DNA from: an uncultured Nitrosomonadales bacterium
Lineage (GTDB): Bacteria; Pseudomonadota; Gammaproteobacteria; Burkholderiales; Gallionellaceae
Assembly: GCA_903892645.1 (NCBI GenBank)
Contig: CAITJF010000148.1
Coordinates: forward strand, 1 to 48,806
Reading direction: 5' to 3'
DNA: 48,806 bases
Below are positions 32,317-45,236 of this stretch, piece after piece. Both the position numbers and the translations under genes were made by a program. Numbering within the stretch: position 1 is the first letter of the stretch; every line of letters begins with the position of its first letter. A model generated the notes under the pieces. The model worked only from the letters and a program-made list of their open reading frames with translations, was not told the DNA's origin and did no database searches.

Positions 32317-35300
32317 ATGTTAAACACCATCATCGACTGGTCGGCGCGCAATCGTTTTCTGGTGCTTCTCGCCACATTGTTCATCACGCTGGCGGGCATT
32401 TACTCGGTGATCAAGACCCCGCTGGACGCACTACCCGATTTGTCGGATGTGCAGGTGATCGTCTATACCGAATATCCCGGCCAAGCGCCGCAAGTGGTGG
32501 AAGATCAGGTCACCTACCCGTTGACCACTTCCATGATTTCGGTACCGAAATCCAGGGTAGTGCGTGGATTTTCGGTCTTCGGCGCATCCTTTGTGTATGT
32601 CATTTTCGAGGATGGCACCGACCTCTATTGGGCGCGCTCGCGGGTGCTGGAGTATCTTAACTTTGCTTCCGGCAAATTGCCCAAGGGCATTACGCCGCAG
32701 ATCGGCCCGGATGCGACCGGTGTCGGCTGGGTATACCAGTACGCGGTGATCGGCGTGAACAAGACGCTGGCCGAACTGCGCACTATTCAAGATTGGTACC
32801 TGCGTTATCAGCTCACCAAGGCACACGGGGTATCGGAGGTGGCTTCTGTCGGCGGCTTCGTGCAGCAGTATCAGGTGACGGTGGATCCGGTAAAGCTGCG
32901 TGCCTACGGCATTCCGCTCAACAAGGTGGTGCAGGTGATCCGCGAGTCCAATCGCGATGTGGGCGGGCGTGTGGTAGAAATGGCCGAGACCGAGTATATG
33001 GTGCGCGGCAAGGGTTATCTGCGCGGCACGGGCGACATTGAGAATCTGGTAGTCAAGGCGGAAAAAGGTACACCGGTGCTGATCCGCGACATTGCGCGTG
33101 TCGAGCTCGGCCCGGACGAGCGGCGCGGCCTCACCGAGTTGAACGGTGAAGGTGAAGTGGTGTCCGGTATCGTCATGGCGCGCTATGGGCAGAACGCGCT
33201 GGAGGTTATCGAGAACATAAAAAACAAAATTGCCGAGGTGTCCGCTGGTCTGCCCGATGGCGTAACCATACAGACGGTGTATGACCGTTCCGACCTGATC
33301 CACCATGCCATCGCAACCCTGAAAAGCACATTGCTGGAGGAAAGCATTATCGTCGCACTGGTGTGCATGGTATTTCTGATGCATGTTCGCAGCGCGCTGG
33401 TGGCCATCGTGATGTTGCCCGTCGGCGTGCTGATCGCCTTTATTGCCATGCGCGTGCTGGGCATAAATTCCAACATCATGAGCCTGGGCGGCATCGCGAT
33501 TGCCATCGGCGCGATGGTGGATGCGGCTATCGTGATGATTGAGAACGCGCACAAACATCTTGAGCGGGTCAAGGAGGGTGAGTCGCGCTTTGAAGCAATG
33601 CTGGCAGCATGCAAGGAAGTCGGCCCGGCGTTATTTTTCTCTCTGCTCATTATCACGGTCTCATTTTTGCCGGTATTCACGCTGGAAGCGCAGGAAGGGC
33701 GGTTGTTCTCGCCGCTTGCCCTTACCAAGACCTTCTCCATGGCCGGTGCGGCATTGCTGTCCATCACGCTGGTGCCGGTATTGATGGGGCTGTTTATACG
33801 CGGCAAGCTCATGCCGGAGGCAAAGAACCCGCTGAACCGCTTTTTGATCTGGGCTTATCGCCCGATCATCGCGGCGGTGATGCGCTGGAAGAAAACAACC
33901 ATCGTCACCGCGCTGGTGCTGCTGGGTATTTCCATCTATCCTGCGACACGCTTGGGTAGCGAATTCATGCCCACACTCAACGAGGGCACGCTGCTCTACA
34001 TGCCCGCCTCGCTGCCCGCCATGTCCATCACCAAGGCGGCTGAACTGTTGCAGACGCAGGACAAGATCATCAAGAGCTTTCCCGAGGTTGCATCCGTGTA
34101 TGGCAAGGCAGGACGTGCGCAGACGGCCACCGACCCGGCCCCGCCGGAGATGTTCGAGACGGTGATTAATCTCAAGCCGGAAAAAGAATGGCGTGCCGGC
34201 ATGACCATCGACAAGCTGATTGCGGAAATGGACAAGGCATTGCAATTTCCGGGTATGGCCAACTCGTGGACCATGCCGATCAAGGCGCGTCTCGACATGC
34301 TCGCCACCGGCATCCGCACACCGGTCGGCATCAAGGTGTATGGCAAGGATCTGCAAGGAATAGAGCGTGTGGCTAAGGATATCGAAGCAGTGATCAAGAA
34401 TATTCCGGGCACCACCAGTGCCTTTGCCGAGCGCATTACCGGCGGTTTCTACCTCGATATTGAGCCGGATCGGGAAGCGCTTGCGCGTTACGGGCTGGCG
34501 GTCGGCGAGCTGCAGGATGTCATCTCTACCGCACTCGGCGGCGAGATGGTGACCACGACGGTGGAGGGGCGTGAACGCTTCGGCGTCATCGTCCGCTACC
34601 CGCGCGAGTTGCGCAGCAGCCCTGAACTGATCGCGAGGGAGGTGCTGGTACAGAGCATGGAGGGTGCGATGATCCCGCTCGGGCAACTCGCCAAGGTGGA
34701 AGTAGTCAAGGGAGCGCCCGCCATTCGTACCGAGAACGCGCTGCTTTCTGCTTACATCTATGTGGATATTCGCGACCGCGATATCGGCTCGTATGTGGCG
34801 GAGGCGCGCAAGGCGGTGGCGGAGAAAGTGAAATTCCCGCCCGGTTACTATGCGACATGGAGCGGGCAGTTTGAATACATGGAGCGCGCTGCCGCCAAAA
34901 TGAAGATTGTTATACCGATTACCCTGCTGATCATTTTCTTGTTGCTCTACCTCAATTTCATGCGCGTGACGGAAACCCTGATTGTGATGCTCTCGGTGCC
35001 GTTCGCGCTGGTGGGGGGTGTCTGGTTGCTGTGGCTGCTCGGCTACAATATGAGCATCGCGGCGGCAGTCGGCTTCATCGCGTTGGCAGGGGTGTCCGCG
35101 GAGATCGGCGTGATCATGCTGATTTATCTTGATCATGCGCTGCAAACAATAATCCAGAAACGCCATGCTTTCGGGGAACAGGTGAGCGTAAGTGATATCT
35201 ACGATGCTGTCATGCAAGGAACATCGCTGCGAGTGCGCCCCATTATGATGACGGTGTTTGCCATTACTGCGGGGCTGTTACCTATTATGTGGGGGCATGG

Positions 35301-35433
35301 CACAGGGTCGGAGGTCATGAGTCGTATCGCCGCGCCGATGATCGGCGGCATGATCTCATCGACCATTTTGACTTTGGTGGTCATTCCGGTCATTTATGCA
35401 CTGGTTAAGGAAGCGGGGTTGCGCAAGCTGTAG
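32317..35433 (+). CDS. cusA: Cu(I)/Ag(I) efflux RND pump
   Basis: CusA is the proton-driven inner-membrane RND pump. The 1038-residue protein belongs to the HME subfamily. The three methionines that carry Cu(I)/Ag(I) in E. coli CusA (573, 623, 672) align with Met562 (LLYMPASLP), Met612 (PEMFETVINLKP) and Met661 (RLDMLATGIRTP), all shifted by 11 residues, so the pump is monovalent-metal specific. The TM4 segment GAMVDAAIVMIENAHKHLE is that of CusA. It is the last intact gene of the cus operon; a decayed methyltransferase gene follows two bases after its stop. Confidence 0.96.
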   Translation: MLNTIIDWSARNRFLVLLATLFITLAGIYSVIKTPLDALPDLSDVQVIVYTEYPGQAPQVVEDQVTYPLTTSMISVPKSRVVRGFSVFGASFVYVIFEDGTDLYWARSRVLEYLNFASGKLPKGITPQIGPDATGVGWVYQYAVIGVNKTLAELRTIQDWYLRYQLTKAHGVSEVASVGGFVQQYQVTVDPVKLRAYGIPLNKVVQVIRESNRDVGGRVVEMAETEYMVRGKGYLRGTGDIENLVVKAEKGTPVLIRDIARVELGPDERRGLTELNGEGEVVSGIVMARYGQNALEVIENIKNKIAEVSAGLPDGVTIQTVYDRSDLIHHAIATLKSTLLEESIIVALVCMVFLMHVRSALVAIVMLPVGVLIAFIAMRVLGINSNIMSLGGIAIAIGAMVDAAIVMIENAHKHLERVKEGESRFEAMLAACKEVGPALFFSLLIITVSFLPVFTLEAQEGRLFSPLALTKTFSMAGAALLSITLVPVLMGLFIRGKLMPEAKNPLNRFLIWAYRPIIAAVMRWKKTTIVTALVLLGISIYPATRLGSEFMPTLNEGTLLYMPASLPAMSITKAAELLQTQDKIIKSFPEVASVYGKAGRAQTATDPAPPEMFETVINLKPEKEWRAGMTIDKLIAEMDKALQFPGMANSWTMPIKARLDMLATGIRTPVGIKVYGKDLQGIERVAKDIEAVIKNIPGTTSAFAERITGGFYLDIEPDREALARYGLAVGELQDVISTALGGEMVTTTVEGRERFGVIVRYPRELRSSPELIAREVLVQSMEGAMIPLGQLAKVEVVKGAPAIRTENALLSAYIYVDIRDRDIGSYVAEARKAVAEKVKFPPGYYATWSGQFEYMERAAAKMKIVIPITLLIIFLLLYLNFMRVTETLIVMLSVPFALVGGVWLLWLLGYNMSIAAAVGFIALAGVSAEIGVIMLIYLDHALQTIIQKRHAFGEQVSVSDIYDAVMQGTSLRVRPIMMTVFAITAGLLPIMWGHGTGSEVMSRIAAPMIGGMISSTILTLVVIPVIYALVKEAGLRKL

Positions 35434-35434
35434 C

Positions 35435-35638
35435 ATGGGGTTTTACGCCAAAGCTCGCCACCCCCGGTACGGCGCTTTCGTGTTCATCATGTCAGGATTC
35501 CCATTGTGGATGCCGAGTATTTTGACACTGCTAATGTTTCTGATATTGGTATGGATATGCATGCGGCTTATATGGTAAGAAGAGCGGGAAGCCATAGCAG
35601 AACTTGGAAGCGTATACACCGGGTATGCACAGCCGTAG
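35435..35638 (+). pseudogene. Remnant of an isoprenylcysteine-carboxyl-methyltransferase-like gene
   Basis: Reading from an ATG just after the cusA stop gives GFYAKARHPRYGAFVFIMSGF, then PLWMPSILTLLMFLILVWICMRLIW and a TAA (35576-35578). The same frame continues after that stop as EEREAIAELGSVYTGYAQP up to a TAG (35636-35638). Together these make the C-terminal half of the ICMT-like membrane methyltransferase family (Y-A-x-x-RHPxY...R-L...EERE-A-x-x-FG-x-x-Y-x-x-Y). The N-terminal half is missing and the stop interrupts the best conserved part. Related intact genes accompany metal-efflux operons in other proteobacteria, as far as I recall. Confidence 0.65.
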
Positions 35639-35842
35639 GAGCCGGATGATAACTTCAAGGTGGTGTGAAGAGTCGGCCGAAGGCCGGCAGATTCCCGGCT
35701 TGAGCTGTAACTTCAAGCCCTCGCCTAAAGGTGAGGGTTGTTCGGTAGTTTTCACACCCTAACTGTGAGTGTCAATATGTCGAGTAATAATCCCGTGCGG
35801 TGTTAAAATCGCGCTCCAAAATTTTCTGAAATCGAGTTTTAC
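35639..35842. other. Non-coding gap between the methyltransferase remnant and ybiT
   Basis: This stretch holds small hairpins, one CGGCC-GAA-GGCCG near 35675 and a terminator-like one at 35718-35737. No reading frame or RNA gene is recognisable. The last 60 bases are AT-rich and probably hold the ybiT promoter. Confidence 0.5.
35718..35737 (+). terminator. Terminator-like hairpin behind the cus operon
   Basis: CCCTCGCC (35718-35725) pairs with GGTGAGGG (35730-35737) around a TAAA loop, eight pairs with one G-T. The bases after it (TTGTTCGGTAGTTTT) are only moderately T-rich. It would end transcription of the cus genes. Confidence 0.45.
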
Positions 35843-37441
35843 ATGCTTTCCACCGCCAACATCACCATGCAATTCGGGGCGAAGCCCCTGTTTGAAAACG
35901 TCTCCGTAAAATTCGGTGATGGCAACCGCTACGGCCTCATTGGCGCGAACGGTTGCGGCAAGTCCACGTTCATGAAAATCCTCGGCGGCGATCTGGAGCA
36001 AAGTTCGGGCAATGTGATGCTGGACAAGGGCGAGCGGCTGGGCAAGTTGCAGCAGGATCAATTTGCCTACGAGGACACGCGTGTGCTGGACGTGGTGATG
36101 ATGGGGCACGCCGAGATGTGGGAGGTGATGGCGGAGCGCGATGCGATTTATGCCAACCCGGATGCCTCGGAAGAAGACTACATGCACGCCGCCAATCTGG
36201 AGGCGAAGTTCGCCGAATTCGACGGCTACACGGCGGAAGCGCGCGCCGGTGAGCTGTTGAACGGACTGGGGATAGCGCAAGAGTTGCAGAATGGCCCGAT
36301 GCGCGAAGTCGCACCCGGTTTCAAATTGCGCGTGCTGCTGGCGCAGGCATTGTTCTCCGACCCGGAAATCTTGTTGCTGGATGAACCGACCAACAACCTC
36401 GACATCAATTCCATACGCTGGCTGGAAGATATACTCAACGCGCGCAACAGCACCATGGTCATCATCTCGCATGACCGCCACTTCCTGAACAGCGTGTGTA
36501 CCCACATGGCCGACCTGGACTTCGGCAGGATCATGGTTTACCCCGGCAACTACAACGATTACATGCTGGCCTCGACCCAGGCGCGCGAGCAGCAGTCGTC
36601 GGACAATACCAAGGCCAAGGAAAAGATCGCCGAGTTGAAGGCTTTCGTGGCGCGCTTCTCGGCGAATGCGTCCAAGGCCAAGCAGGCGACTTCGCGCGCG
36701 CGCCAGATCGACAAGATCAAGGTCGAAGACATCAAGCCATCCAGCCGCCAGTACCCGTTCATCCGCTTCGAATACGATGAGCGCGAGAAGCTGCATCGCG
36801 TCGCGGTGGAAGTGCAACACATGAGCAAGGGTTTCGACCGCGTGCTGTATTCCAACGTGAATTTCCGTATCGACGCGGGTGAAAAAGTCGCCATTATCGG
36901 GCCGAACGGCATTGGCAAGACCACGCTGCTGCGCTGCCTAGCGGGCGACCTCACCCCGGATACCGGCATCATCAAGTGGGCGGACAAGGCCAAGCTCGGC
37001 TACTACGCGCAAGATCATGCCGCCGATTTTGCCGAAGATATAATCATGATGGACTGGATGACCGACTGGCGCGGCCCGAGCGACGACGACCAGGTGGTGC
37101 GCGGCACGTTAGGTCGTTTGCTGTTCTCCGGCGACGACGTGAAGAAAAAAGTGAAAGTGCTGTCCGGCGGCGAGAAGGGCCGCATGCTGTTCGGCAAGCT
37201 GATGCTGCAAAAGCCCAACGTGCTGCTGATGGACGAGCCGACCAACCACATGGATATGGAAGCCATCGAGTCGCTCAACACCGCACTCGACCTGTACAAA
37301 GGCACGCTGATATTTGTCAGCCACGACCGCGAGTTTGTTTCATCGCTCGCCACGCGCATCATCGAAATTTCCGCCAAGGGTGTCACCGATTACCACGGCA
37401 CGTATGAGGAATATCTGCGCAGCCAAGGCATGGTGGTGTAA
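35843..37441 (+). CDS. ybiT: ABC-F family ribosome-associated ATPase YbiT
   Basis: ABC-F proteins bind the ribosomal E site and modulate translation. The 532-residue protein has two ABC cassettes without membrane segments: Walker [10 protein letters not shown] at residues 34-42, and GPNGIGKTT in the second half; Walker [12 protein letters not shown] and [11 protein letters not shown]. The start [25 protein letters not shown] and the length (530 in E. coli) identify YbiT rather than EttA or Uup. It stands alone. A CACCTTT/AAAGGTG hairpin (37451-37467) follows the stop. Confidence 0.94.
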
Positions 37442-37710
37442 CGATAGACCCACCTTTGTCAAAGGTGTTAGGGGGTAGTGGTATCAGATATCGAAGACTT
37501 TCAAATCCACCTCAGTCCAGAATGGCACTGGGCGCGGCTGGTGCTGGTACATAGGCAAACACCCGCAAAGCAGAATACGCGATTTCACAGGCGAACCTCA
37601 TCGCTAAGGTAGCAGGCAACACCGAATATTTCGCTCAGACGAATTGGCAGCTCGTGCGCTAACAAGATTTTTGTTTGAGCTTCCCTCTGTGCGGGTAACT
37701 ATGCACAAAG
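37442..37710. other. Non-coding gap downstream of ybiT
   Basis: It begins with a perfect 7-base hairpin CACCTTT-GTC-AAAGGTG (37451-37467). The rest gives only stop-broken short frames on either strand that I do not recognise. It ends at the strong hairpins between ybiT and nirK. Confidence 0.5.
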
Positions 37711-37748
37711 AAACCCCCCTTGCATGCAGAAGCATGCAAGGGGGGTTT
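37711..37748. terminator. Perfect 17-base-pair hairpin, likely bidirectional terminator
   Basis: AAACCCCCCTTGCATGC (37711-37727) pairs exactly with its reverse complement at 37732-37748 around an AGAA loop. The C6/G6 core and the flanking AAA/TTT fit a bidirectional terminator for ybiT and nirK. It contains two GCATGC palindromes. Confidence 0.7.
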
Positions 37749-37758
37749 AGCAAAAAAA

Positions 37759-37782
37759 GAGCAAGGCCGTTAAGCCTTGCTC
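37759..37782 (-). terminator. nirK rho-independent terminator
   Basis: GAGCAAGGC (37759-37767) pairs perfectly with GCCTTGCTC (37774-37782). Read on the minus strand, the stem is followed by a run of seven T (37752-37758), as a terminator of nirK requires. On the plus strand it is followed by CTTTT. Confidence 0.85.
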
Positions 37783-37821
37783 CTTTTAATTCCCACCCTT
37801 CTTAGGAAGGGCAAAAACTGA

Positions 37822-38823
37822 TTACTTCTTAGCGTCTAACTTGCCTGCACGGAACAGATCAGGCTGATCTGCACCTTCAGCTTGGATAATGGCGACATTA
37901 CCCTTCATCAGGCGGGTCAGTGCATGGTCAACCAGGATGTACTTGGCTGGAACGCGTGCCTTGAATTCCACCATCGTCGCACCACCAGGAGGTACCGTTG
38001 TGGTTTGCACGTTGAGTTCCGGTGCGCCAGTGGAGCCTTCAGCCCAAACCTTATCGAAGATGGTACCAATTGCGTGGAATGATGAAGTCAGGTTAGGACC
38101 GCCAACACCGAAGAAAACACGGATGTTGTCGCCAACTTTGGCTTTCATCGGGGCTCCAGCCAAGGCAGCAGCGGAACCGTTCATCACCACGTTAGTGGGT
38201 TGCTCCATCATCATCTTCTCCATGCTGAAATCTTTGTGAGGGCCAGCGCCATCAGCATAGATATCGCCTTGCATCACGTAGAATTCCTTGTCAACCTTCG
38301 GCAGGCCGCCTTCTGGTTCGATCAGGATCAAGCCATACATACCGCTCGAAATATGCTGTGGAATCACCGTAGTAGCGCAGTGATACACAAACAGGCCTGG
38401 GTTCAATGCCTTGAACACAAATGACTTCTCTTCACCCGGAGCAACGCTGGTCAGCGCAGCACCACCACCCTGACCCCATACTGCATGCAGGTCAACGTTA
38501 TGGATCAAAGCGCTGGTCTTGGCATTTTTCATGGTGACTTCAATTGTGTCACCAACGCGGGCACGCAGCATAGGGCCCGGTACTTTTCCGTTGAATGTCC
38601 AGTATGTAAATGAAGTTTTAGCGGCACCGTCAAGAATTCCGTTTACTTCAACAGCTTCCAGAGTGAACTTAACATGTGTTGGGCCACGCTTGCCTACAGG
38701 TGTTCCTACTGCAGTTGGATCTTGAACAATGCTTACAGGCTCAGGACCTGCAGCCCATGTTGCCGATGAGCCAAATGCCAACAGACCCAGCGACAGCGCT
38801 CCGATGATTGCACTTACTTTCAT
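37822..38823 (-). CDS. nirK: Copper-containing nitrite reductase (NO-forming)
   Basis: NirK reduces nitrite to nitric oxide in the periplasm. The 333-residue protein has a signal peptide (cleavage near TWA-AG) and two cupredoxin domains. All copper ligands are present: type 1 His108, Cys149, His157, Met162; type 2 His113, His148, His300; plus catalytic Asp111 and His250. The sequence resembles the AniA/Nitrosomonas class (HNVDLHAVWGQGGGAA, NPGLFVYHCA, GMYGLILIEPEGGLPKVDKEF). No cytochrome domain is fused. GGGAAGGGAA before the ATG is a strong ribosome-binding site. It is monocistronic with a terminator and a long AT-rich upstream region. No nitrite-reductase accessory gene is nearby. Confidence 0.95.
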   Translation of the reverse strand: MKVSAIIGALSLGLLAFGSSATWAAGPEPVSIVQDPTAVGTPVGKRGPTHVKFTLEAVEVNGILDGAAKTSFTYWTFNGKVPGPMLRARVGDTIEVTMKNAKTSALIHNVDLHAVWGQGGGAALTSVAPGEEKSFVFKALNPGLFVYHCATTVIPQHISSGMYGLILIEPEGGLPKVDKEFYVMQGDIYADGAGPHKDFSMEKMMMEQPTNVVMNGSAAALAGAPMKAKVGDNIRVFFGVGGPNLTSSFHAIGTIFDKVWAEGSTGAPELNVQTTTVPPGGATMVEFKARVPAKYILVDHALTRLMKGNVAIIQAEGADQPDLFRAGKLDAKK

Positions 38824-38972
38824 GATGATTCCCTTCCCTTAGTTTTGCTGGTTATTAAAAACTACATACTGCAACATACATACCGTATCACAAGTCAGCA
38901 GGTGCGCCACCGACAGACCGGACAAACACTACAAAAACAAACCTTCATTAAGCTTTTTGTATTTTTCACCTG

Positions 38973-38991
38973 GGTGCATTATTTTTGCACC
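38973..38991 (-). promoter_or_regulatory. Candidate operator GGTGCA-N7-TGCACC upstream of nirK
   Basis: A 6-base inverted repeat around an AT-rich spacer lies 150 bases before the nirK ATG. Size and AT core are reminiscent of NsrR-type nitric-oxide-sensor boxes (TGCATTT-based), but the match is imperfect. The regulator is unknown. Confidence 0.35.
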
Positions 38992-39097
38992 TTGAGTGTT
39001 ATTTCGATCCGATATTGTTTATCTTCCAAGCTTGATGCAGAGGTTGATTTATCAATATGGTTGATTCTAATTCTGGTTGCCTAAGCTTAAATTTTCT

Positions 39098-39111
39098 TTG
39101 ATATACGTCAA
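39098..39111 (-). promoter_or_regulatory. Candidate FNR/NnrR-type box (TTGAT-N4-GTCAA)
   Basis: TTGATATACGTCAA fits the FNR/NnrR consensus TTGAT-N4-ATCAA except for one base. It lies 275 bases upstream of the nirK ATG, so the transcript would have a long leader. Control of nirK by oxygen or nitric oxide through Crp/Fnr regulators is common. Confidence 0.4.
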
Positions 39112-39181
39112 CTTTCATTAACAAAGAGAGGGGGAAACATTGAACTAACAGGGTTTGAAGCATTCATCCTTGTAAAAGCCC

Positions 39182-39196
39182 GTACAAAAATTGTAC
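39182..39196. promoter_or_regulatory. Perfect palindrome GTACAA-AAA-TTGTAC
   Basis: A 15-base perfect inverted repeat lies between the metK stop and nirK. It could be a regulator site. It is far from the nirK start (about 360 bases), and its role is unknown. Confidence 0.3.
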
Positions 39197-39246
39197 TCCA
39201 AAATTGAATCCGCCAATGATTAAAAACTAGCGGTTTTTTAGCTGGC

Positions 39247-40425
39247 TTACAGGCCAGCGTCTGCACGCAAGGCGGCGGCCTTGTCTGTCACTTCCCAGGT
39301 AAATCCCGGCTCTTCGCGGCCAAAATGGCCGTAAGCAGCGGTGCTCTGATATATGGGACGCAATAGGTCGAGCATTTGCACGATGCCTTTCGGGCGCAGG
39401 TCGAAATGTTTCTTCACCAGCTCCGCAATCTTCTCGTCGGAAACTTTGCCGGTGCCGTAAGTTGTGACCCAGACACTGGTAGGTTGCGCCACACCGATCG
39501 CGTAGGAAATCTGGATCAGGCACTTATTGGCCAATCCCGCCGCCACAATGTTCTTGGCGACATAGCGGCCTGCGTAAGCTGCGGAACGATCCACCTTGGA
39601 CGGATCCTTGCCGGAGAATGCGCCGCCGCCGTGCGGGGCTGCGCCGCCGTAGGTATCCACAATGATCTTGCGCCCGGTCAGGCCGCAGTCGCCCTGCGGG
39701 CCGCCGACGACGAAACGGCCGGTCGGGTTGACTAGGTATTTGATGTTGCCCTTCATCAGTTCCTTCGGTAACACCGGCTTGATGATCTCCTCGATCACGG
39801 CATCGATTGCGGACTGCTTCATCTTCGGGCCGTCGGACATTTCAGGCGCGTGCTGGGTGGAGAGCACCACAGTGTCGATGGAGTGCGGCTTGCCATCCAC
39901 ATAGCGAACGGTGACCTGCGATTTTGCGTCCGGGCGCAGCCAGTTCAGGCGGCCATCGCGGCGCAGTTGCGCCTGGCGCTCGACCAAGCGGTGTGCCAGG
40001 TAAATCGGCAGCGGCATCAGGGTGTCGGTCTCGTCACAGGCATAGCCGAACATCAGGCCTTGGTCGCCCGCTCCTTGATCAAGAGTATCGTCATAGGCCT
40101 TGTTCACGCCTTGGGCGATGTCCGGGCTTTGCTTGTCATAGGCCACCAGCACGGCACAGCCTTTGTAATCAATACCGTATTCGGTGTTGTCGTAGCCGAT
40201 GCGCTTGATGGTGTCACGCGCCACCTGGATGTAGTCCACATTGGCGCTGGTGGTAATCTCGCCAGCCAGCACGACTAGGCCAGTGTTGCACAGCGTTTCA
40301 GCGGCAATGCGTGAATGCTTGTCCTGCGCTAGAATGGCGTCCACAATGGCATCGGAAATTTGATCCGCAACCTTGTCTGGATGACCTTCAGATACCGATT
40401 CGGATGTGAATAGAAATTCGCTCAT
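39247..40425 (-). CDS. metK: S-adenosylmethionine synthetase
   Basis: MetK makes SAM from methionine and ATP in the cytosol. The 392-residue protein starts [26 protein letters not shown], and has [16 protein letters not shown], the P-loop-like [15 protein letters not shown] and the C-terminal YGHFGRE. Length is as expected (about 390). It is expressed from its own promoter (see the -10 at 40466-40471) and is divergent from the lipid A acyltransferase genes. No SAM or SAH riboswitch is evident in its 57-base leader. Confidence 0.97.
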
Positions 40426-40465
40426 TGTGTTCCGTACGCCTCCAGGCTGGATAATTAGGACGCAT

Positions 40466-40471
40466 ATTATA
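40466..40471 (-). promoter_or_regulatory. -10 element of the metK promoter
   Basis: On the minus strand the gap holds a consensus TATAAT about 40 bases before the metK ATG. The -35 element is weak. GGAGG at 40439-40443 is the ribosome-binding site, 13 bases before the start. Confidence 0.55.
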
Positions 40472-40494
40472 ACAAAACCCGGTTGTTTCTACCC

Positions 40495-41379
40495 ATGTGT
40501 CCTTCCATTGTTGTTTGGCTGTTCGAATTAGCAGCACACTTGCCGCTTGGTGCATTACATCGTCTGGGCACACTAATGGGCTGGGCGACATATCTACTGT
40601 CTGGCAATTATGCCCGGCGCTTGCGCGAGAATCTCAGGTATGAAATGGGGAGCTGCCCTGAAAAGGATTTCCACAAGGTGTTAAACGCCAGCATAGCGGA
40701 AGCGGGCAAGGGCGTGGCCGAATTGCCATGGCTTTGGCGCCGGCCGCTGGCGGAGGTGGCGGCCAGCGTCAAGGCGTGCCACGGATGGGAACATGTCGAG
40801 GCCGCGCGTGCGCGCGGTAAGGGAATAGTTTTTTTAACTCCGCACCTGGGGTGCTTCGAAGTTTCCGCGACCTATGCGGCTGAATCAATTCCTATCACCG
40901 TGCTGTATCGCCCGCCCAAACTGGCCTGGCTGGAACCGGTGATGTGTAGCGGGCGCGAGCGCGGCCAGATGCGGCTGGCGCGCACCGACGTGGGCGGGGT
41001 GCGCTCGTTGTATAAGGCGCTTAAACGCGGCGAGGCAATCGGGCTGTTGCCGGATCAGGTGCCCGGCAAAGGCGAAGGAGAGTGGGCTGATTTTTTTGGC
41101 CGACCGGCCTATACCATGACGCTGGTGGGGCGCCTGGCAGAATCCAGCGGGGCGGCCGTGCTGATGGCGTATGCCGAGCGTTTGCCGAAAGGCGCGGGCT
41201 ACGTTATCCATATTACGCCGCTGGAATTTGTTTCCGGCATCCCCATCACAAAACAGATAAATGCGGCGCTGGAAAAAGTGGTGCGCGCCTGCCCCACGCA
41301 ATATCTGTGGAGCTATAACCGTTACAAGGTTCCCGCTGGTATTGAGCCGCCCAGGCAGCAGGAAGCGGGGCAGCCATGA
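40495..41379 (+). CDS. LpxL/HtrB-type lipid A acyltransferase, first of a tandem pair
   Basis: These inner-membrane enzymes add secondary acyl chains to Kdo-lipid A. The 294-residue protein has an N-terminal hydrophobic segment, the HX4E-type catalytic motif HLGCFE (in TPHLGCFEVSATYA), then VLYRPPK and GLLPDQVPGKGEGEWADFFG. Its stop overlaps the next gene's start (ATGA), so they form an operon. The start could also be a TTG four codons upstream. Which acyl position it serves is unknown. Confidence 0.88.
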   Translation: MCPSIVVWLFELAAHLPLGALHRLGTLMGWATYLLSGNYARRLRENLRYEMGSCPEKDFHKVLNASIAEAGKGVAELPWLWRRPLAEVAASVKACHGWEHVEAARARGKGIVFLTPHLGCFEVSATYAAESIPITVLYRPPKLAWLEPVMCSGRERGQMRLARTDVGGVRSLYKALKRGEAIGLLPDQVPGKGEGEWADFFGRPAYTMTLVGRLAESSGAAVLMAYAERLPKGAGYVIHITPLEFVSGIPITKQINAALEKVVRACPTQYLWSYNRYKVPAGIEPPRQQEAGQP

Positions 41380-42245
41380 TGGTTCGCTTCAGCGTTTTCC
41401 TGATCTGGTTGTTGCACTTTTTGCCGTTGCCGGTGCTGGCATGGTTTGGCAACGGTGTGGGCATGGTGTTTTATGCGCTGGCTGCGGAGCGACGCAGGGT
41501 GGCGGACATCAACTTGCATTTGTGTTTTCCCGAAATGTGCAAGGCAGAACGCGCTCGCCTGATACGCGCCCATTTCCGGGCGTTCGGGCGCAGCGTTGTC
41601 GAGCGCGGCATCCTGTGGTGGTCCAGCAGTGAGCGGATCAAGAAACTGGTGCGTGTCGAAGGGCTGGAGCATTTTCAGGCCGTACACGGCAAGCCTCTCA
41701 TCCTGCTGACGGCGCATTTTGTCGGGCTGGATGTCGGCGGCTCCTGGCTCTCCCAGCATACCGATGTGGTCACCGTTTATTCCAAACAGAAAAACCCCTA
41801 TTTCGATGCTTTTATGTTGCGGAAGCGGACGCGCTTCGGGAATCAGTTGTTGTATTCACGGCAAGATGGCATGCGCCCTGCGGTAAGGGCTATGCGCGAA
41901 GGCCACCCTTTTTACTATTTCACGGACCAGGATTTTGCGGCCCGGGATGCGCTGTTCATCCCCTTCTTCGGCGTGCCGGCCTCTACCTTGACCACCGTGC
42001 CGCGTTTGGCGGAAATGACTGGCGCGCGAGTAGTGCCCTGTATCCCCCGTGTGCTGCCGCATGGCAAAGGTTATGAACTGCGCTTCTACCCGGCATGGGA
42101 CAATTACCCTACGGGCGATCTGGCAGCGGATACGCGCCGCGTGAATGAATTTATCGAGCAGCGTGTGCGTGAAATGCCGGAGCAGTATTTTTGGTTGCAC
42201 AAGCGGTTCAAGACCAGGCCTGAAGGCGAGGAAAAGCTTTATTGA
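41376..42245 (+). CDS. LpxL-type lipid A acyltransferase, second of a tandem pair
   Basis: The 289-residue protein is a paralogue of the upstream gene, with hydrophobic N-terminus and the motif HFVGLD (HX4D type, in LTAHFVGLDVGGSW), KQKNPYFDAFMLRKRTRFG, YYFTDQDFAARDALFIPFFG and the C-terminal PEQYFWLHKRFKTRPEGE. This is closer to classical LpxL (HX4D) than the first gene (HX4E). The pair probably adds two different secondary chains. ATGA overlap gives coupled translation. Confidence 0.9.
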   Translation: MMVRFSVFLIWLLHFLPLPVLAWFGNGVGMVFYALAAERRRVADINLHLCFPEMCKAERARLIRAHFRAFGRSVVERGILWWSSSERIKKLVRVEGLEHFQAVHGKPLILLTAHFVGLDVGGSWLSQHTDVVTVYSKQKNPYFDAFMLRKRTRFGNQLLYSRQDGMRPAVRAMREGHPFYYFTDQDFAARDALFIPFFGVPASTLTTVPRLAEMTGARVVPCIPRVLPHGKGYELRFYPAWDNYPTGDLAADTRRVNEFIEQRVREMPEQYFWLHKRFKTRPEGEEKLY

Positions 42246-42250
42246 AAACC

Positions 42251-42300
42251 CCCTCTCCCTAAATCCTCTCCCCTAATGGGAGAGGGGCTGGGGGAGAGGG
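42251..42300. repeat. Nested CCCTCTCCC/GGGAGAGGG intergenic palindrome
   Basis: An outer 9-base stem (CCCTCTCCC 42251-42259, GGGAGAGGG 42292-42300) encloses an inner hairpin CCTCTCCC-CTAAT-GGGAGAGG (42265-42285). The CTCTCCC core recurs at 5827-5847. It lies between the acyltransferases and ubiD and may act as a terminator or mRNA-stabilising repeat. Confidence 0.6.
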
Positions 42301-42319
42301 CATAAAAAAGGGGTTGCCC

Positions 42320-43783
42320 ATGAAATACCATGACCTGCGCGATTTCATCGCGCAACTGGAAAAAATCGGCGAACTGAAACGCGTCACTACACCCGTTTCG
42401 CCGCATCTGGAAATGACGGAAATCTGCGACCGCGTGTTGCGTGCGCAAGGCCCTGCTGTGCTGTTCGAAAAACCTGCTGGACACACTATGCCCGTATTGG
42501 CGAATCTGTTCGGCACGCCGCGCCGCGTGGCGCTCGGCATGGGCGAGGAGAACACACAGGCATTGCGCGAATTGGGCAAATTGCTGGCTTACCTGAAAGA
42601 GCCGGAGCCGCCCAAGGGCCTGCGGGACGCCTGGGATAAATGGCCGGTGCTGAAGCAGGTGCTTAATATGTCGCCCAAGGTGGTGTCCAGTGCACCTTGC
42701 CAGGAAATCGTTTGGGAAGGCAATGATGTGGACTTGGGCAAGCTGCCCATCCAGCACTGCTGGCCCGGCGATGTCGCACCGCTCATCACCTGGGGCTTGG
42801 TAGTCACGCGCGGCCCGAACAAGCCGCGCCAGAATCTCGGCATCTACCGCCAGCAGGTGATCGCGCCGAATAAAGTCATCATGCGCTGGCTGGCGCATCG
42901 CGGCGGTGCGCTGGATTACCGCGACTGGTGCGCGACGCACCCCGGTGCGCCGTTCCCGCTGGCGGTGGTAATCGGCGCCGATCCGGCGACCATCCTGGGT
43001 GCGGTCACGCCGGTGCCGGACTCCTTATCCGAGTATCAATTCGCCGGATTGTTGCGCGGTGCAAAGACCGAGCTGGTGAAATGTATTGGCAGCGACTTGC
43101 AAGTTCCGGCCAGTGCCGAAATCGTGCTGGAAGGCGTAATTCACCCTAACGAAACCGCGCTGGAAGGCCCTTATGGCGACCACACCGGCTATTACAACGA
43201 GCAGGAAAAATTCCCGGTATTCACCATCGAGCGCATCACCATGCGCGCTAACCCGATTTACCATTCTACCTACACCGGCAAGCCGCCCGACGAACCGGCC
43301 ATGCTGGGCGTGGCGCTGAATGAATTGTTCGTGCCGCTGCTGCAAAAACAGTTTCCAGAGATCGTGGATTTTTACCTGCCGCCGGAAGGTTGCTCCTACC
43401 GCCTCGCCGTGGTGTCCATCAAGAAACAGTATCCGGGGCACGCCAAGAGCGTGATGTTCGGCATCTGGTCCTATCTGCGCCAGTTTATGTACACCAAATT
43501 CATTATCGTGGTGGACGACGACATCAACATTCGTAACTGGCAGGAAGTGATCTGGGTGATGACAACCCGCGTTGACCCGGTGCGTGATACGTTGTTGGTG
43601 GAGAACACGCCGATTGATTATCTCGACTTCGCCAGCCCGGTGTCCGGGTTAGGCGGCAAGATGGGCTTGGATGCCACCAATAAATGGCCGGGGGAAACCC
43701 ATCGCGAATGGGGCACGCCCATCGTCATGGACGCAGCGGTGAAGGCAAAGGTGGATGCGATGTGGGGGGAGATGGGGTTGTGA
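42320..43783 (+). CDS. ubiD: 4-hydroxy-3-octaprenylbenzoate (polyprenyl) decarboxylase
   Basis: UbiD decarboxylates the prenylated hydroxybenzoate in ubiquinone synthesis using prenylated FMN made by UbiX. The 487-residue protein starts [21 protein letters not shown] and contains [59 protein letters not shown] (with the catalytic Glu region) and VDDDINI. AGGGG seven bases upstream supports the ATG at 42320; an in-frame TTG at 42314 is less likely. No ubiX is in the window. Confidence 0.96.
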
Positions 43784-43790
43784 TGTGTAG

Positions 43791-43816
43791 GGCGGATGAG
43801 CGTAGCGTTTTCCGCC
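43791..43816. repeat. GGCGGA/TCCGCC dispersed hairpin between convergent genes
   Basis: GGCGGA (43791-43796) pairs with TCCGCC (43811-43816) around GAGCGTAGCGTTT-type sequence, a common REP-like intergenic repeat in proteobacteria. It separates convergent ubiD and dacB and may serve as terminator. Confidence 0.5.
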
Positions 43817-43829
43817 GCCACACACCCTC

Positions 43830-45236
43830 TTACCTCCCCTGCAACCACTCGACCAGCGCGTCCTGCGCGGCCTGTCCGTATTTGGCGTTGGGGTGGTTGA
43901 TGAAGAACACCACCACCCATTCCTTGCCGCCTTGCGAGCGCACATAACCGGCGATGGTCTTCACGCCTTCCAGTGTGCCGGTCTTGAGGTGGGCGTGGCT
44001 GGCGGCGGCGCTTTCCTTGAGGCGTTTCTTCACCGAGCCATCTACGCCGAGTATCGGCAGCGAGGATTGCAGTTCGGCGCTGAGCGGATGAGCAGCGGCG
44101 CTTTGCAGCAGCAATGCCATGCTGTGCGGGCTGATGCGCTCGGTGCGGGATAACCCCGCGCCGTTTTCCAGCACCAGTTCCGGGAAGTCGAGGCGCTGTT
44201 TGTTTAGCCATTGCTGCATAGCTGCCGTACTGCGCGTGATGGAGGTAGTAGCGTTACCTGCCACACCCAGCGTCAAGAACAACTGGCGCGCCATGACGTT
44301 GTTGCTGAATTTGTTGATGTCGTGGATGACTGTGCTCAATGGATCGGAGAGATGCGTGGCAAAGAGTTGCGCGTTACTGCTTACCACTTCCTCGCGCAAT
44401 TTGCCGCGTAGCGTGCCGCCGAGTTCCTGCCACAGCGCGCGGAACACGGCTTCCACATAGCGCGTGTGCGGCATCACGCTGAGATTTTGTTCGCGCTCGC
44501 CACATTCGCTTGGGTAGCCGCCTTGCAGGATGACGCTGTCGCCGTCCGGTTGCACGCGGATGGCGTCGTCCCATTTGTCGCAATCCCCTTTCGATGGGTG
44601 TGAAGCAGTTTGTGGCGTGAACTGGTTATCCAGTCTTATGCCATCCAGTGGCGGTTCGCTGATAATTTTCAGCGTGTTTCCGTCAGGCAGGTAGCGCAGG
44701 CGCAGGGTGTTGAAATTCAGCAGCAGCGCATCCGGCCCGACGTTGTAGGCGCGTACCGGATCGTTGTCGAAGGCGGCGGGGTCGTGTGCGGGCAAATCAA
44801 AAAAGCTGCGATCCAGCACCAGGTCGCCGCGTATCTCGCGCAGGCCGCGTGCGCGCAGTTCGCTCAGCCACAGCCAGAATTGCTCGATGGTGAATTTCGG
44901 GTCACCATAACCTTTCAGGATCAGGTTGCCTTGCAGCACGCCATCTTTCAACTCGCCGTCCAGATATGCCTCTGTTTTCCAAGTGTAGGCGGGGCCGAGG
45001 ATATCCAGCGCGGCGTAGGTGGTGAGTAGCTTCATGGTCGAGGCCGGATTCATCGCCTGCGTGGCGTTGATGCTGATGAGCGGTTTACGCGCATTCACCT
45101 CATATACTTCGAGGCCGATGCCGTCGAGTGGGATGTGCGCCTGCTGCAAGGCATCACGCACTGAGGAAGGCAGCGCGGCGGCGTGGGCGTTGAACACGAC
45201 GAACAGTGCGGCAATCAGGGTGTACATGAGCCTCAT
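43830..45236 (-). CDS. dacB: D-alanyl-D-alanine carboxypeptidase/endopeptidase (PBP4)
   Basis: DacB trims and hydrolyses peptidoglycan cross-links in the periplasm. The 468-residue protein has a signal peptide (to about AHAA), and the three penicillin-binding motifs: STMK (Ser66-Lys69), SNN in KFSNNVMARQLF, and KTG (418-420) in LKTGTLEGVKTIAGYV. Insertion domain 2 characteristic of PBP4 lies between SxxK and SxN. The ATG overlaps the stop of bioA (ATGA), with GGAGGCG in bioA acting as ribosome-binding site, so expression is coupled to biotin synthesis, presumably by chance arrangement. Confidence 0.94.
   Translation of the reverse strand: MRLMYTLIAALFVVFNAHAAALPSSVRDALQQAHIPLDGIGLEVYEVNARKPLISINATQAMNPASTMKLLTTYAALDILGPAYTWKTEAYLDGELKDGVLQGNLILKGYGDPKFTIEQFWLWLSELRARGLREIRGDLVLDRSFFDLPAHDPAAFDNDPVRAYNVGPDALLLNFNTLRLRYLPDGNTLKIISEPPLDGIRLDNQFTPQTASHPSKGDCDKWDDAIRVQPDGDSVILQGGYPSECGEREQNLSVMPHTRYVEAVFRALWQELGGTLRGKLREEVVSSNAQLFATHLSDPLSTVIHDINKFSNNVMARQLFLTLGVAGNATTSITRSTAAMQQWLNKQRLDFPELVLENGAGLSRTERISPHSMALLLQSAAAHPLSAELQSSLPILGVDGSVKKRLKESAAASHAHLKTGTLEGVKTIAGYVRSQGGKEWVVVFFINHPNAKYGQAAQDALVEWLQGR

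Follow-up and report, generated by a model that had tools for sequence, protein, structure and literature searches.

What governs expression of nirK, the gene for a copper nitrite reductase, in an uncultured bacterium of the Gallionellaceae? The question is raised by the gap between nirK and its neighbour metK (TIGR01034 profile) in the window, i.e. the whole stretch of 48,806 nucleotides of DNA analysed here. An earlier note had described this gap as a long, palindrome-rich leader, had singled out three elements in it and had proposed that oxygen and nitric oxide (NO) may act on nirK through more than one regulator. The features concerned are these:

37822-38823, minus strand: nirK, copper nitrite reductase of 333 aa (TIGR02376, 320.5 bits against a cut-off of 296.3)
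38824-39246, minus strand: AT-rich metK-nirK intergenic region, 423 bp
38829-38840, minus strand: purine-rich ribosome-binding stretch AAGGGAAGGGAA, with a similar stretch in the family alignment
38973-38991, no strand assigned: dyad GGTGCA-N7-TGCACC (GGTGCATTATTTTTGCACC), probable NsrR operator
39098-39111, minus strand: FNR box TTGACGTATATCAA (plus strand TTGATATACGTCAA), exact match, centre at 39104.5
39182-39196, no strand assigned: GTACAA-AAA-TTGTAC palindrome (GTACAAAAATTGTAC), probably outside the nirK control region
39210-39233, minus strand: terminator-like hairpin 3' of metK (1 found, 0.6 expected)

The description of the gap as AT-rich and unlike the rest of the window holds, with 37.4% GC against 56.0%. 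Among 2420 sliding windows of 423 bp (step 20), two are equally AT-rich and both overlap the gap, which at this scale exceeds the rest of the window in AT content. All three elements are present in it and together span 224 bases. Palindrome richness as such is weak: four perfect inverted repeats (arm 6, spacer 0-10) are observed, and at least four occur in 61 of 1000 dinucleotide shuffles of the gap, which set the chance levels for all motifs in it. What stands out clearly is the FNR box, because an exact TTGAY-N4-RTCAA occurs in only 1/1000 shuffles; the dyad stands out mildly.

At class II promoters activated by FNR, the centre of a TTGAT-N4-ATCAA box lies about 41.5 bp before the start, with the -10 hexamer at a fixed distance. 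The nirK box has a single mismatch to this symmetrical consensus and is followed by a hexamer that gives an inferred promoter, P1, with a start site predicted near 39063:

39070-39075, minus strand: inferred -10 hexamer CAGAAT of P1, 29.5 bp from the box centre
39070-39111, minus strand: composite FNR promoter TTGAY-N4-RTCAA-N17-RCAACNARAAT, matched with zero mismatches

With up to two mismatches allowed, the composite promoter, a pattern drawn partly from the nirK site itself, occurs in 0/1000 shuffles of the gap. In an alignment with the upstream regions of two relatives, L089 (genome G008, 89% NirK identity) and L098 (genome G092, 74% NirK identity), the box through the inferred -10 forms a gap-free block, and at the class II spacing the three loci have CAGAAT, CAGAAT and CAAAAT. 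The search for Fnr in the genome that the earlier note had called for returned two FNR proteins, which score 239.0 and 258.1 bits against the NF008365 cut-off of 228 and both carry C-x2-C-x5-C. Oxygen control of nirK by FNR is well supported. As for the label “FNR/NnrR-like” given to the box, the FNR/DNR type stands, and NnrR is rejected as regulator because its consensus, ctTTGcgnnnncgCAAag in the available part of PMC1274295, differs from the box.

How far does this promoter extend among relatives? The family set comprises 14 of 15 nirK loci at ≥73% identity with 500 bp upstream each; L091, whose contig stops <100 bp from the matched region (as also in its twin record L008), was left out. 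An exact FNR box is found at four of the 14 (L088, L089, L098, L100) and is absent from ten. The distant set comprises 70 of 72 loci (L013-L084; L016 and L041, with <400 bp upstream, are omitted), taken as the 450 bp before the tblastn match; here an exact FNR box occurs in 1/70 and the NsrR core in 0/70, and the counts inside genes are 0 and 0. Motif conservation, on which the earlier note had made its reading depend, is thus kept in close relatives and absent in distant ones. The one distant box, TTGATCTTCATCAA, is of exact FNR type and lies at -343 of a Terriglobia nirK locus (L084).

In the genome of the window (G000), 13 exact FNR boxes are found against 5 for the reversed pattern. Seven of the other 12 are inside reading frames (L130, L131, L133, L136-L139) and five are outside the listed frames, at a local GC of 39-44%: two in L135, one of them between fnr and hemN and the other next to a cytochrome c gene, one in front of a COX2/COX1 operon (L134), one 10 bp ahead of a reading frame of no assigned identity (L129) and one between two such frames (L132). 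The hexamers spaced from these boxes as in class II promoters read GAAAAT for the COX2 operon, CAAAAT for the cytochrome c gene, ATAAAA for fnr and ATAATC for hemN. The L129 and L132 boxes have ACACAT and TGGTTT, no fitting hexamer on the one strand looked at; a -10-like hexamer is not at every box.

The composite promoter, drawn from nirK and the COX2 operon of G000 and from G008 and G092, gives 17 matches with up to two mismatches in 16 genomes, against 1 for the reversed control. Seven are exact: four belong to nirK (G000, G008, G092, G093), two belong to the COX2/COX1 operon (G000, G092), and the seventh (G009:C65), ~660 bp from a contig end, has no assigned gene. Beyond the source sites of the pattern, the exact promoter thus also occurs in front of G093 nirK and of the G092 COX2/COX1 operon. 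Among the four matches with one mismatch, G008:C40 is at the COX2/COX1 operon, G007:C67 has the same type of upstream neighbour as that operon with COX2 absent from the frame list, and G008:C73 and G009:C189 are at other genes. The six with two mismatches include G093:C37 at the COX2/COX1 operon, G007:C40 at the same gene as G009:C189, and four of no assigned gene (G071:C12, G079:C152, G093:C82, G093:C88).

The COX2/COX1 operon that recurs in this search suggests a partner for NirK. On contig C152 of G000 (L165:1515-3761), COX2 lies directly upstream of COX1 behind an FNR promoter like that of nirK. Four residues after an active-site histidine, COX1 has a glutamine where the two aligned oxidases that are its best matches, PDB 7deg and 4gp8, both of the ba3 type, have a tyrosine. 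This glutamine and a cupredoxin subunit encoded upstream are given as marks of the NO reductase eNOR in the available part of PMC8756737, and the C152 operon has both: glutamine in place of the active-site tyrosine and, directly upstream, a gene for a cupredoxin subunit II. Its products are thus a putative NO reductase of the eNOR type. The cytochrome-c-like domain of cNOR and qNOR (PF22085) was not found in G000, and a literature search under other names of NOR subfamilies returned nothing. According to PMC10734462, as far as available, few Gallionellaceae have eNOR, cNOR is their commonest NOR, no genome has nosZ, and removal of nitrite and NO is one suggested reason for their nir genes.

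Because the putative eNOR operon has the same type of promoter as nirK, NirK is probably one step in a branch from nitrite via NO to N2O, which may serve respiration or detoxification. Conversion of nitrite to N2O by this organism is plausible, with the NO reductase activity inferred from sequence. The earlier statement that the window has no second denitrification gene stands for positions 33000-45000, where none was seen among the reading frames listed.

The case for a second regulator turns on the dyad and on NsrR. The dyad agrees with the NsrR consensus gATGyAT-N5-ATrCATc (PMC1274295, available in part) at 11 of 14 positions, a score reached in 47/1000 shuffles and, in the window, by three other sites. 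Its core, TGYA-N7-TRCA, occurs in 36/1000 shuffles, and the fuller RRTGYA-N7-TRCAYY has nine sites in G000 against three for the reversed control. There is also a pattern from the lineage itself. The DNA 3' of nsrR in G000 carries CTTGCATTATAAATACACT, and TGCATT-W-N3-ATRCAY is present 3' of nsrR in five of the six genomes with NsrR, G008 being without a match. The dyad is one mismatch from this pattern, which was made without nirK (17/1000 shuffles do equally well), and is the only place in the window within one mismatch of it. A wider operator pattern gives 17 matches in 11 of 14 genomes against 1 reversed control, with three in G000 (nirK, the nsrR-linked site and C159); it was drawn to include the nirK site, and the nirK match is therefore circular.

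The genome search for NsrR, also called for in the earlier note, finds an ortholog encoded, though at 139.3 bits it is below the curated NF008240 cut-off of 182. The best candidate is an Rrf2 protein whose gene shares a run with a hemerythrin-domain gene. Among PDB structures it matches the NsrR 5n07 best, and cysteines align to the three cysteines of 5n07, which bind the cluster. Orthologs (75-100% identity) are found in G000, G007, G008 and G009, which are the genomes of the genus, and in G092 and G093. All four genomes with an FNR-box nirK encode NsrR; G007 and G009 have NsrR and lack a nirK match. We also note that the DNA 3' of nsrR (L166:3451-4605) encodes a 231-aa protein without a Pfam or NCBIfam match and then the hemerythrin-domain protein.

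Among nirK loci the geometry of the dyad varies. The nearest relative, L089, has it with a spacing of N8, and in L098 its right arm is lost, so that the strict NsrR geometry is kept in one of the three loci; a GGTGYA-N-TGCACC dyad occurs in two of the 14 family loci. What the window, L089 and L098 share is AAATARCACYYAAGGTGY followed by an A-tract and AATAA. Because the spacing shifts in the nearest relative and an arm is lost in the next, the dyad is a probable rather than a certain NsrR operator, and control of nirK by NO through NsrR is plausible. Two further features lie in this part of the gap:

38978-39007, minus strand: possible second promoter P2, TCGAAA-N18-AATAAT, from a consensus scan; overlaps the dyad, start near 38971
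38894-38937, minus strand: leader block TTTTTGTAGTGTTTGTCC...GGTGGCGCACCTGCTGAC between the promoter and the nirK start, partly recognisable by eye in 10 aligned family loci and partly conserved across genera

In the consensus scan P2 is no better than chance (1 found, 0.9 expected).

Based on these data, we suggest a model in which FNR drives nirK from P1 and NsrR represses it at the dyad. In this model, the regulatory region would be transcribed on the minus strand. At low oxygen, active FNR would bind the box at about -41.5 and activate P1, giving a transcript with a leader of ~240 nt. NsrR on the dyad would sit over the weaker P2 and inside the P1 transcript, and would repress nirK until NO removes it. 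As a result, NirK would be produced at low oxygen in the presence of nitrite or NO, alongside the putative eNOR driven by FNR. We hold this combined model to be the likely one, with a modest degree of confidence. The proposal that more than one regulator acts on nirK is reasonable, because control by oxygen and FNR is well supported and control by NO and NsrR plausible; its NnrR part is unsupported.

The most serious competitor, which we regard as unlikely but well worth keeping in mind, is that nirK is under FNR alone and that the dyad is a chance or decaying repeat of which only the left arm and the A/T tract of P2 are kept. The variable spacing and right arm in relatives and the frequency of the core in shuffles agree with it. 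They have to be set against the presence of NsrR in 4/4 genomes with an FNR-box nirK and against a dyad one mismatch from the nsrR-linked operator of the lineage, both of which favour the combined model. Distinctly less probable is that the box is read by an NO-sensing, DNR-like member of the Crp/Fnr family in place of FNR. DNR and FNR have the box type in common (DNR consensus CTTGATnnnnATCAAG in the available part of PMC1274295), and a third Crp-type protein (L087), which is without C-x2-C-x5-C, could be such a regulator; however, L087 scores weakly (at best 42.1 bits, to FtrB, against a cut-off of 211), the genome encodes two clear FNR proteins, and hemN and fnr itself also have this box in front of them.

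A structured, cis-acting RNA in the long leader would be a third way to control nirK, and the partial conservation of the leader block across genera is what speaks for it. By contrast, the 165-nt stretch around the start codon (38818-38982, against a leader of ~240 nt) folds more weakly than its shuffles (z +1.5, with 192 of 200 shuffles as stable or more so), and the only two Rfam matches in 38600-39500 are both far below the gathering scores. We consider this explanation very improbable.

The third element named in the earlier note, the GTACAA palindrome, shows no sign of function. GTACAA-N3-TTGTAC has one other copy in the genome, the same number as the reversed control, and occurs in 0/5 relatives searched, on which grounds we reject it as an operator; in the alignment the palindrome is lost in L089 and L098. 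It is probably chance or sequence of the metK 3' end.

Joint control of nirK by FNR or DNR and NsrR is already described in Betaproteobacteria, and the design is the same here in a new lineage. In Chromobacterium violaceum, the available part of PMC1274295 likewise predicts for nirK/norB control a box of FNR/DNR type in the nirK upstream region with an NsrR site downstream of it; the activator predicted there is DNR, whereas FNR is favoured here. Neisseria aniA, a nirK, is likewise activated by FNR and repressed by NsrR (PMC10187123 and PMC1274295, each available in part), and both regulators were tested at aniA in PMC10187123. However, aniA also uses NarQP and Fur and shares its region with norB; nirK here adjoins metK, and its NsrR site is less certain in geometry. 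In Nitrosomonas europaea, a lithotrophic betaproteobacterium, nirK is likewise under NsrR repression according to PMC1274295, whose available part mentions no FNR box. A literature search combining NsrR, Fnr, nirK and Gallionella returned nothing. For a betaproteobacterial lineage related to iron oxidisers, the model tells when NO would be made from nitrite: under low oxygen and, probably, after NO has appeared.

The more novel part, the comparison suggests, is a possible swap of regulators within the family. Seven of the 14 family loci (L093-L097, L101, L102) carry the palindrome TGCGRCA-N3-TGYCGCA, and three (L090, L092, L099) have neither this nor an FNR box. In Gallionella, the palindrome adjoins the inferred nirK promoter and the FNR box is absent. 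Among the genomes with this palindrome at nirK, seven in all, one has an NsrR match above 30% identity (G029, 50%). Each of 12 genomes has 1 to 6 copies against 0 or 1 for the reversed control, and neighbours were read at 13 of 18 fetched loci. They include TonB-receptor genes (by Pfam in L167, L175 and L181; by eye in L168/L180, L177 and L183), genes for the copper-storage protein Csp1 (TIGR04401 in L181 and L183, with PDB 5fjd for L181; by eye in L180) and histidine-kinase genes (L176; L182, closest to RegB and below the cut-off), as well as one gene of outer-membrane type (L174) and one that matches no family (L179). In L170 the palindrome is inside a reading frame, and in L169 it is without a clear gene.

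The palindrome is thus a probable mark of a copper regulon of nirK, Csp1 and TonB-receptor genes. Tentatively, and as a possibility that falls somewhat short of even, we speculate that orthologous nirK genes of a single iron-oxidiser family have exchanged their master regulator: in this genus and two others, which encode NsrR, nirK would belong to an FNR regulon that includes a putative eNOR, and in Gallionella it would go with a copper-linked palindrome. Because copper-storage and TonB-receptor genes have the palindrome in common, NirK of Gallionella would track the supply of copper and not oxygen or NO. The comparison would then be a clean natural experiment on how a nitrite reductase gene moves between regulons, one for oxygen/NO and the other likely for copper. 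Literature searches for a copper operator with these genes, or for a copper repressor and a palindrome at a nirK promoter, returned nothing. Finally, a gene for a metal efflux RND pump of the CusA/CzcA type lies near nirK in the window (32317-35433), and RND-like sequence is also seen by eye near nirK in L092, L097 and L099.
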